A stretch of DNA of 64,000 nucleotides from assembly GCA_947493165.1 (NCBI GenBank), contig CANLPY010000001.1:558001-622000 (forward strand). The letters are read 5' to 3'. The first letter of the stretch is position 1. Each line of letters starts with the position of its first letter. This document shows, one piece after another, positions 27,717-31,749 of this stretch. Source of the stretch: an uncultured Erythrobacter sp. (GTDB lineage: Bacteria; Pseudomonadota; Alphaproteobacteria; Sphingomonadales; Sphingomonadaceae). The position numbers and the translations under genes were made by a program. Under the pieces are notes generated by a model that saw only the letters and a list, made by a program, of their open reading frames with translations, did no database searches and was not told where the DNA came from.

Positions 27717-27800
27717 CGTCATTGCGAGCAGCCAACCGCTGCGCGGCAATCCAGGGACAGGCGCTGGATTGCTTCGTTACCAACGGTCCTCGCAATGACG
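27717..27800. repeat. Palindromic intergenic repeat, CGTCATTGCGAG family
   Basis: The element is bounded by CGTCATTGCGAG (27717-27728) and its exact reverse complement CTCGCAATGACG (27789-27800). A second pair, GCAATCCAG at 27746-27754 and CTGGATTGC at 27764-27772, lies inside, so the whole stretch can fold back on itself. This kind of element recurs in intergenic DNA of Sphingomonadales and other alphaproteobacteria. It sits between the rplS terminator and the S9 peptidase start and probably occupies that gene's leader. Function unknown. Confidence 0.8.
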
Positions 27801-27899: not shown

Positions 27900-28262
27900 T
27901 TACTTGGTAACGTCGCGGCGCTCAGCAATACGAGCCCGCTTACCTGTGCGTCCGCGCAGATAGTAAAGCTTCGCACGGCGCACAACGCCGCGGCGAACCA
28001 CGGTGATGCTGTCGACGATTGGCGCATAGAGTGGGAACACACGTTCCACACCTTCGCCAAAGCTCATTTTGCGCACGGTGAAGTTGCTGTTGATGCTGCG
28101 GTTCGACCGCGCAATGACAACGCCTTCAAAGTTCTGGATACGCTCTCGGCTACCCTCGGTGACTTTCACGCCGACACGCACGGTGTCTCCGGCCTGAAAC
28201 TCAGGAATTTCTTTGGTCACTTTGCCGATTTCTTCGGCTTCGATTTGCTGGATCAGGTTCAC
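27900..28262 (-). CDS. rplS: 50S ribosomal protein L19
   Basis: Large-subunit protein at the 30S-50S interface. The 120-residue sequence shows [26 protein letters not shown] and [14 protein letters not shown]. Its start codon overlaps the trmD stop by 4 bases (ATGA), giving tight coupling, and a terminator follows. Confidence 0.97.
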
Positions 28263-29107
28263 TGGTCCGTGTCCTTTTCTTTTCGCCGCGCGCCAGAGGC
28301 AGACTGGACCCGAGCATCCTCATGACGCTCCCATAGATCCGGCCTGCGTAACCGAGTGTGATCTTCCGACATGGCTTTGCGCCACGCCGCGATCTTCGCA
28401 TGATCCCCCGATCGCAGCACTTCAGGGATCGTGCGCCCTTCCCATTCTTGAGGTCGGGTGTAGTGCGGATACTCAAGGAGGCCTTCTTCAAAGCTCTCCT
28501 CAGCACCGCTTGAAGGCGCGCCCATTACGCCGGGAAGCAGCCGAATGCAAGCATCAAGTATGGTCAGTGCAGCCATTTCTCCGCCCGATAAGACGATATC
28601 AGCCAGGCTGACCTGCTCAATCTGCGGCCGCGCTTCGAAAATGCGCTCGTCAAAGCCTTCAAACCGCCCGCACAGCAGCGTGACGCCAGGCCCGGCTGCG
28701 ATCTCGCGGATGCGCGCCTGAGTGATGGGTTTGCCGCGCGGCGTCATGGCTAGGATGGGCACCGCTCTTTCACCCGTTCGCCCTGAGCGTGTCGAAGGGC
28801 CGTTCTTCACTTTCGATGCCTCGTGAGAAGAATAAGACGGTGCTTCGACAGGCTCAGCACGAACGGATTGAGAGTCAATTACAGAATCCAGCGCCCGCGC
28901 CATCACATCGGCCTTCAGGACCATCCCCGCACCGCCACCTGCGGGAGGGCTGTCGACATTCTTGTGCTTGTCTAATGCAAAATCGCGCGGGTTTACCGTG
29001 TCACATGACCAATCCCCGCGCGCTAAGGCCTTGCCCGCGAGGCTAACGCCCAGGGGCCCTGGAAACATCTCAGGATAGAGCGTCAGGACGGTGGCGCCGA
29101 AGGTCAT
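28259..29107 (-). CDS. trmD: tRNA (guanine-37-N1)-methyltransferase with an in-frame repeat insertion
   Basis: SPOUT-class enzyme that methylates G37 of tRNAs to prevent frameshifts. The 282-residue protein has the N-terminal [22 protein letters not shown], the knot motifs [12 protein letters not shown] and [27 protein letters not shown] and the linker and C-terminal domain [11 protein letters not shown]. Residues 81-111 (SVRAEPVEA to STRSGRT) have no counterpart in other TrmD proteins and are exactly the 93-bp palindromic element at 28774-28866. Frame and all catalytic motifs are kept. The insert falls in the loop before the knot, so function is probably retained. Confidence 0.95.
28774..28866. 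repeat. Palindromic element inserted in frame in trmD
   Basis: Left arm 28774-28804 (CCGTTCGCCCTGAGCGTGTC then GAAG) and right arm 28836-28866 (ending GCTCAGCACGAACGG) are imperfect inverted copies with a spacer of about 30 bases. The 93-bp length is 31 codons, so the reading frame survives. The encoded signature VRAEPVEA and GPSTRSGRT is one I recall as recurring in many sphingomonad and caulobacter proteins, which fits a dispersed mobile-type repeat. Confidence 0.88.
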
Positions 29108-30652: not shown

Positions 30653-31195
30653 CTAGCCTTCAGAGAATTCGGCGGCGATCACAAGCCTGCTTGTGTCCCA
30701 TTCGATCACGGCCGCATCAATCATTGGCACCATGAAGGTTTTCATACCCTTTTCAGGCGGCGGCTCGCGCACGATCTCGATCACGTCGGTCGCGCCGAAA
30801 TTCTCGACCGCGACGACGGTGCCCACGCGGTCTCCTGCGTCGGTGAAGGCTTCCAGGCCAAGAAGGTCAGCGTGGTAAAACTCGCCCTCGGCAAGGTCTG
30901 GCAGGGCTTCTCGCGGCACCATCAGCACGGTTCCGCGCAGTTTCTCTGCTTCATTGCGCCCGGACACTTCGGCGAAGCGGGCGACGGCCCCGCCCTTATT
31001 GTCAGAGCGGATTTTCTTGAGCGTCAGGACACGCCCATCTTTGCCGGCCGTGAAACTCTTATGCTGCGAGAGCGCGTCGACGCCCTCGCCAAACAGTTTC
31101 AGCCGGACTTCGCCCGCCACGCCGTGCGCGCCAGTGATGGCGGCCAGCTCGATCATTTCTGCGCGAGCTGGCGGCGTGACGGGCGTTTCCGTCAT
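30653..31195 (-). CDS. rimM: 16S rRNA processing protein RimM
   Basis: Binds S19 and assists maturation of the 30S head. The 180-residue protein has the N-terminal RimM domain (MIELAAITGAHGVAGEVRLKLFG) and the PRC-barrel C-terminal domain (FYHADLLGLEAFTDAGDRVGTVVAVENFGATDVIEI). It lies 8 bases after rpsP, in the usual order. Confidence 0.95.
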   Translation of the reverse strand: MTETPVTPPARAEMIELAAITGAHGVAGEVRLKLFGEGVDALSQHKSFTAGKDGRVLTLKKIRSDNKGGAVARFAEVSGRNEAEKLRGTVLMVPREALPDLAEGEFYHADLLGLEAFTDAGDRVGTVVAVENFGATDVIEIVREPPPEKGMKTFMVPMIDAAVIEWDTSRLVIAAEFSEG

Positions 31196-31203
31196 AAAAA
31201 GGC

Positions 31204-31749
31204 TTAGCCTTCAGACTTTTCTTCGCCAGCATCTTCCGCTGGAGCTTCTTCAGCAACCGCTTCTTCAGCTGGTGCTTCTTCGGTCGGAGCCTCTGGAGCA
31301 GCTTCTTCAGCAGGCGCTTCTTCGGCAGCAGGTTCTTCTGCTGGTGCTTCTGCAGCAGCCTTTGCTTCTTCTGCAGCGGCGTTCTTCGCTTCTTCTTCCG
31401 CTTCCTTGGCGGCAGCAGCCTTTTCAGCTTTCTCTTCAGCGCGTTCCGTCGCTTTTTCCCCAGGCTTCGCTTTGTTCGGGTTGTTACGCGCAGGACGCTC
31501 CATAATGCCAGCAGCATCCAAGAAACGCAGCACGCGATCTGATGGCTGAGCACCAACGCCGAGCCAGTACTTAGCACGATCTTCGTTCAATTGGACGCGA
31601 TTTGAATCATCTTTGGCGAGCAGCGGGTTGTATGTCCCGATCTGCTCAAGATAACGGCCATCACGCGGTTTACGGCTGTCAGCTGCCACGATCCGATAAT
31701 ATGGACGCTTCTTTGCGCCGCCGCGCGAGAGCCTCAATGAAATTGCCAT
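31204..31749 (-). CDS. rpsP: 30S ribosomal protein S16 with long Ala/Glu tail
   Basis: Needed for 30S assembly. The first about 85 residues are classical ([46 protein letters not shown]). About 95 more residues follow: a charged Glu/Lys/Ala helix, then imperfect repeats of EEAPAEEA to the end, for 181 residues in all. Such tails occur in other sphingomonads; their role is not known. It precedes rimM and follows ffh. Confidence 0.95.

Follow-up and report, generated by a model that had tools for sequence, protein, structure and literature searches.

The trmD gene of an uncultured Erythrobacter sp. contains an in-frame 93-bp palindromic segment that is, in all likelihood, a tolerated passenger repeat in a variable loop of the TrmD protein, and the same loop is filled by at least four repeat families in related bacteria, with alleles that are inherited and probably also exchanged. 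The gene lies in a 64,000-nucleotide stretch of contig CANLPY010000001.1 (called the window here, with all feature coordinates counted from its first base), and the source genome is referred to as G000.

The palindromic element in trmD

The product of the 282-codon trmD frame matched Pfam tRNA_m1G_MT in a profile search, scored 270.4 bits against the NCBIfam equivalog NF000648 (cut-off, 220), also passed the curated cut-off of the second NCBIfam TrmD model, TIGR00088, and was the single match in the source genome when TrmD was searched for. The features of the element and its neighborhood are as follows.

27900..28262, minus strand: rplS (ribosomal protein L19), downstream neighbor of trmD; an ORF named by sequence recognition
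28259..29107, minus strand: trmD, tRNA (guanosine(37)-N1)-methyltransferase, 282 codons including the insert; from ORF, Pfam, and NCBIfam
28774..28866, no strand assigned: family A palindromic element, 93 bp, adding 31 codons; from fold, ORF, and pattern search
28843..28866, minus strand: first arm in the coding direction, CCGTTCGTGCTGAGCCTGTCGAAG, read as VRAEPVEA; from arm comparison
28798..28842, minus strand: spacer between the arms, itself partly self-complementary; from fold
28774..28797, minus strand: second arm in the coding direction, CTTCGACACGCTCAGGGCGAACGG, read as STRSGRT; from arm comparison
30653..31195, minus strand: rimM, upstream of trmD on the same strand; an ORF named by sequence recognition
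31204..31749, minus strand: rpsP (ribosomal protein S16), upstream of trmD; an ORF named by sequence recognition

A sequence-only reading of this DNA had described a palindromic repeat of 93 bp, or 31 codons, lying in frame within trmD, and the arms, the fold, the ORF, and the Pfam and NCBIfam matches all confirmed this description. The arms are 24 nt each, with 3 mismatches when one is compared to the reverse complement of the other, and the copy begins with CCGTTCG and finishes with CGAACGG. Folding energies of the 93 bases are −50.8 kcal/mol (coding strand) and −53.0 kcal/mol (opposite strand). The first base of the element falls on the second position of codon 81; exactly 31 codons are added, in a codon phase that is not zero. 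An automated repeat search of the window did not report the 93-bp palindrome, probably because the mismatches break up its arms. We ruled out an intein or intron, as the segment has 31 codons, forms a simple hairpin, and has no such match in Pfam or Rfam, and we ruled out a pseudogene, as the frame is full and the TrmD score is over the cut-off.

The placement of the insert in a loop before the TrmD knot, which had been proposed from the sequence, was supported in two ways. Solved TrmD structures lack the insert and align on either side of it (for 3ief, to query residues 1-76 and 117-263), and an AlphaFold2 model built from 42 sequences puts the insert between helix 66-82 and strand 118-127. 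The top Foldseek rows for this model were TrmD structures. The pLDDT was below 50 at residues 85-112 of the insert, and since it was also below 50 at residues 53-61, 199-222, 227-239, and 262-282, with a mean of 66.4, the model is weak evidence for disorder of the insert. The invariant TrmD residues are retained in both occupied and empty proteins (42 rows of the 81 available). We propose that a non-autonomous dispersed repeat of family A, resembling REPs or Rickettsia palindromic elements (RPEs), landed in frame in the loop between helix 66-82 and the strand that precedes the knot, and that it would be translated as an additional segment of TrmD. The loop would tolerate the extra residues, possibly through disorder, so that TrmD would still function and the repeat would be carried as a passenger with no selected function. 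The sequence-only reading went further and spoke of a repeat used as a peptide; we found no evidence of such use.

The whole-genome search for the arms that the sequence-only reading had put forward as a check found other copies. The family A arm, with up to 3 mismatches allowed, gave 8 matches at five sites in the 2.97-Mb source genome and none with a reversed control, and in the 60 other genomes of the genus it gave 0 to 59 forward matches each, with at most 2 for the control. Given these control counts, the pattern is no chance effect, and arm matches were present in 53 of the 61 genus genomes. Peptides of the same type were likewise found in other proteins. Three of the five source-genome sites lie between long ORFs or at an ORF edge, and two lie inside ORFs, both in frame; the second in-frame copy is in an ORF that spans 704 codons or more and encodes Type ISP and Eco57I methylase domains. 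This copy (547626-547693, in locus L003, G000:C1:546126-549147) falls in the Type ISP specificity domain encoded by the ORF, a restriction-modification gene.

We then considered the gene context of 54 family A regions, which comprised 36 of the 37 listed G011 sites (all but C29:150445) and all 18 G025 sites; the G011 sites are those among the matches listed, and a few arms may be absent from the set. A codon-usage test covered 52 of these regions, as L203 and L204 fell outside the position filter. It identified one clear in-frame gene, carA of G011, which is not a tRNA gene, and one N-terminal case at the start of a gene that we take, by recognition, to be proC-like. Four regions were ambiguous (L195, L201, L209, and L225), and 46 had no open frame common to both flanks. 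Thus, with 1 clear case in 52 and no shared open frame in 46, in-frame landing in genes is the exception.

The RAYT family PF01797 had no match in the source genome, which rules out mobilization by a RAYT there, and it was present in 11 of the 61 genus genomes. A target-site duplication was also rejected, as none was seen and identity of 2 to 5 flanking bases was found for 4 of 47 elements, about the level expected by chance. Insertion by transposition is thus a step that we infer, since family A also has no known mobilizing enzyme.

Repeat families in the trmD loop of related bacteria

Among 37 genomes of the genus, 14 had a recognizable palindrome in the trmD loop, 1 had a remnant, 21 were empty, and 1 was unclassified, with loops read from fetched loci or, for empty ones without a fetched or printed loop, judged from match spacing. 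The occupied genomes divide into four families as follows.

Family A, 2 genomes: G000, G033
Family B, 2 genomes: G011, G030
Family C, 3 genomes: G001, G015 (insert visible only on two contig ends), G035
Family D, 7 genomes: G012, G013, G014, G023, G024, G025, G031
Short remnant: G002
Unclassified: G005

In a set of 80 titled loci, 31 were occupied (9 by A, 9 by C, 9 by D, 3 by B, and one by A and D together) and 49 had no insert; the two sets partly share identical loops, probably from the same strains, and are not additive. In an even sample of the order, a TrmD match was found in 111 of 118 genomes, and the only genomes to show an insert-like split were G000, G087, and G176, which belong to a single taxonomic family, from which 33 sampled genomes lie outside the genus; the matches for G037 and G155 were short, partial, and uninformative. 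Across the 80 fetched regions, family A has about 91-fold higher density in the loop than elsewhere, with 9 elements in 6,456 loop bases and 8 in the remainder of 526,520 bases. This density is quoted for family A alone because the B, C, and D patterns were made from trmD loops and favor the loop. The trmD loop is a hot spot, and these data suggest either a preferred or an unusually tolerant landing site.

A comparison with close relatives, which the sequence-only reading had put forward as a check, showed that they lack any insert. The uniqueness that this reading implied was not supported, since the loop is occupied in many relatives. The sequence-only reading had also counted relatives with loops of the same length and unrelated sequence against its claim. 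Such relatives do occur, but their loop sequences are other palindromic repeats, and for that reason they strengthen the finding.

Two of the loops had unusual contents. In L094 (Novosphingobium huizhouense), the trmD loop is 81 residues long and contains an A element and a partial D element side by side, apparently from two insertions in one loop. In L243 (G012), the frame of the D element is interrupted at a run of C within it, giving two overlapping ORFs, by either a sequencing error or real slippage.

The families were sorted by motifs made by eye, and we compared nine representative loops by blastn-short. At an E value of ≤0.01, matches were found only within families. Family C is heterogeneous, with no mutual match between C2 and C3 of its three representatives, and families A and B have only short ends in common. 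Each of the other families also recurs outside trmD. The family B arms gave 47 plus 48 matches in G030 and 19 plus 19 in G011, and the family D arms gave 8 plus 7 matches in G023, with a control of 0 for both families; family C is rarer, with 7 matches at 6 sites in G035, one of which is trmD. None of the B, C, and D arm patterns matched in G000. The families by themselves require at least four insertions, and the same loop in this group of Sphingomonadales has received at least four palindrome families with no detectable similarity to each other.

To place occupancy on a phylogeny, we removed the loop and computed a quick maximum-likelihood tree from the TrmD core (81 rows, 239 columns). Occupied and empty states are interleaved on this tree and need at least 23 changes, of which strongly supported branches force 5. 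This count overstates independent insertions if alleles recombine, and it comes from a tree in which 32 of 78 inner branches are unresolved. When the labels were shuffled, 75 of 500 replicates needed as few changes, showing that the states are hardly clustered. In 9 of 14 printed pairs of one occupied and one empty gene, the DNA outside the loop is 90 to 92.5% identical.

A comparison of the source gene with L039 revealed a mosaic. Their loops match at 137 of 138 bases, while identity is 89.8% over 216 bases of the upstream part and 84% (370 of 440 bases) in the downstream part. The tract of high identity starts about 100 bases upstream of the loop, within native codons, and another such tract is found further downstream. 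Constraint on the loop is insufficient to account for this mosaic because native synonymous sites are identical too. From this one pair, it is probable that the trmD loop also moves by homologous recombination. Loop alleles, once formed, would be inherited, would drift, and could pass from one species to another when homologous recombination acts on the conserved core of trmD.

In another comparison, trmD of L040 is about 92% identical outside the loop to that of L041 and L042, and L040 has an outward-oriented pair of A elements while the other two are empty. The whole loop differs between them, and not the insert alone, which suggests loop replacement.

The dN/dS ratio of the loop was 0.28 to 0.86 in 12 chosen pairs, with a pooled pS of 0.27 and pN of 0.15, values that are biased by the conserved arms. 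This leaves room for weak constraint, and overall we read the loop as tolerant with weak constraint.

In-frame palindromes in other genes and alternative explanations

Palindromes in frame were also present in other conserved genes of these bacteria, as listed below; several cases came from a single-frame query, which makes the gene list a biased one.

LeuS: G023 and G031 at one site, G033 at another
BchB: G023
ValS: G035
TruB: G028 with family A; G001, G025, G036, and G035 with other types
TsaD: G017
CarA: G011
2-oxoacid dehydrogenase E2 linker: G072, G028

In the 37 genus genomes, occupied loops number 14 for trmD, 5 for TruB (with 4 TruB genes, those of G013, G023, G031, and G033, outside the classified set), and 3 for LeuS. 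By a length screen, 13 of the 37 TruB genes appeared occupied; the 18 TruB loops that were read comprised 5 with a palindrome, 8 with a longer native loop, and 5 short ones, one of which (L268) is perhaps a remnant of A. The TruB loops of L255, L256, L257, and L258 (G001, G025, G036, and G035) have two further palindrome types at the same site as the A element of G028. These two types, HAELVSASI and HPGEGRDP, were assigned by sequence recognition and hairpin energy. For LeuS, G013 has a contig break at the site, and a long segment in G007 is not palindromic-looking. The ValS of G035 (L156) apparently contains more than one repeat-like insert in one protein.

Plain tolerance alone leaves the frequency of trmD insertions unexplained. 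One alternative, which we consider unlikely, is that the machinery copying these palindromes, whatever it is, prefers the DNA of the trmD site. The local density of family A and the arrival of four families at one site would fit such targeting, as would the recurrence of the LeuS and TruB sites in several genomes. However, the position within the loop varies by several codons, neither a clear target motif nor a duplication was found for family A, the sequence of empty loops is not the same from clade to clade, and targeting would be the work of an enzyme for which there is no known candidate. A broader version, to which we also give a low probability, is that palindromic repeats land or are retained specifically in the loops of tRNA-acting enzymes (TrmD first, and TruB, LeuS, ValS, and TsaD), through targeting or through selection on mRNA or protein. 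If it were true, unrelated palindromic repeats would be recurrently built into the tRNA-modification machinery. The idea that tRNA enzymes are specially favored was weakened by the 52-region sample of family A, in which carA was the sole clear in-frame gene.

Hairpins in the loop could instead be kept for a role in the mRNA. In Escherichia coli, the operon has a low output of TrmD and is controlled by mRNA folding. If this operon has to supply much less TrmD than ribosomal proteins, any strong hairpin, regardless of sequence, might serve by slowing trmD translation, which would account for the convergence of unrelated families on one site. All nine representative loops fold strongly, and 32 occupied loops have a mean of −0.53 kcal/mol per base, compared to −0.39 kcal/mol per base for downstream stretches of the same length in the same genes. 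Against this role, L071 (−0.31), L045 (−0.35), and L040 (−0.37) have lost the extra stability yet keep the frame, 49 of the 80 titled loci have no insert, and palindromes are also found in frame in TruB, LeuS, ValS, TsaD, CarA, and E2 proteins. We regard a role in the mRNA as quite improbable.

It is still less probable that the extended loop is a functional peptide, kept by selection on the protein because it helps TrmD to handle tRNA or stabilizes its dimer. In favor of this reading, the frame used by distinct trmD alleles is uniform for family A (11 of 11 first arms and 10 of 10 second arms found) and for family D (14 of 14 and 13 of 13), although other frames of the trmD elements are often open. 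In genomic copies of A, the used frame is open in 70 of 94 copy-strands and the other main frame in 66 of 94. Against this reading, two frames occur in the first arm of family B (3 versus 1) and likewise in the second arm of family C (5 versus 2), the four peptides are mutually unrelated, and the alleles are not independent, given shared descent and recombination. Hydropathy was rejected as the cause of frame choice, as only 10 of the 31 alleles with an alternative use the most hydrophilic of their open frames.

A single ancient insertion that diverged into all of these loops, with many losses, is hardly credible: some clades do keep one family (four Citromicrobium-like loci are all C), but there is no cross-family similarity among the nine representatives, families B, C, and D match repeats elsewhere in the tested genomes, and empty loops are uniform within clades and not scar-like.

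Relation to known repeats

The palindromic repeat of trmD has features in common with several known systems. The parallel with Rickettsia that the sequence-only reading had drawn stands as an analogy, in that family A is a dispersed palindromic repeat found in frame in conserved genes. In-frame palindromes were described as Rickettsia palindromic elements by Ogata et al. (2000, 2002), as cited in PMC3767692, and RPE-1 is also noted in R. conorii truB in the main text of PMC3733652. RPEs are short dispersed palindromes inside conserved ORFs that keep the frame, and family A shows both features. Family A differs in that its host belongs to a free-living group and that one gene loop is filled by four families.

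The main text of PMC3733652 likewise reports that REPs occur within ORFs in many bacteria, among them those for tRNA synthetases and TruB in Erythrobacter litoralis and S. alaskensis. It gives one case of different REPs at one site, recB of two Xanthomonas, and describes a CGTC-type REP without a dedicated transposase. Family A resembles the CGTC- and GTAG-tagged REP dimers outlined there, which are inward-facing palindromic pairs, mostly intergenic and sometimes in ORFs. Neither a literal CGTC nor a literal GTAG tag was seen at the ends of the trmD copy or in the flank profile of 47 copies, although family A may still be related to these REPs. The RAYT transposase of the GTAG type was not found in G000. 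The element is also similar to MITEs (reviewed in PMC10969869), being small, non-autonomous, multicopy, and built of inverted repeats, but no target-site duplication was seen in 47 copies of family A, and a parent transposon was sought as RAYT alone.

The main text of PMC3733652 does not mention trmD, and we found in it no description of the filling of one loop by several families or of exchange between species. In the literature searched, we found no report of trmD with palindromic repeats or of one trmD loop filled by four families. Thus, in-frame REP and RPE repeats were already known, also in tRNA enzymes of Erythrobacter, and what appears to be new is that a single trmD loop has been filled repeatedly. 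Most of the in-frame palindromes described from Rickettsia onward are scattered cases, whereas the essential gene trmD is a natural replicate experiment: across dozens of related species, the same loop either is empty or contains one of four unrelated repeats. Because several of these species are in culture, whether such repeats act as passengers, as regulators, or as raw material for new protein segments is directly testable, and the trmD loop also lends itself well to a search for the enzyme that moves them.

A different palindrome lies close to trmD in the window. At positions 27717-27800, between rplS and an S9-type peptidase ORF, there is an inward-facing pair of CGTCATTGCGAG-type palindromes, which we take by resemblance to be a CGTC-tagged REP dimer and which may extend the apparent start of the peptidase ORF.
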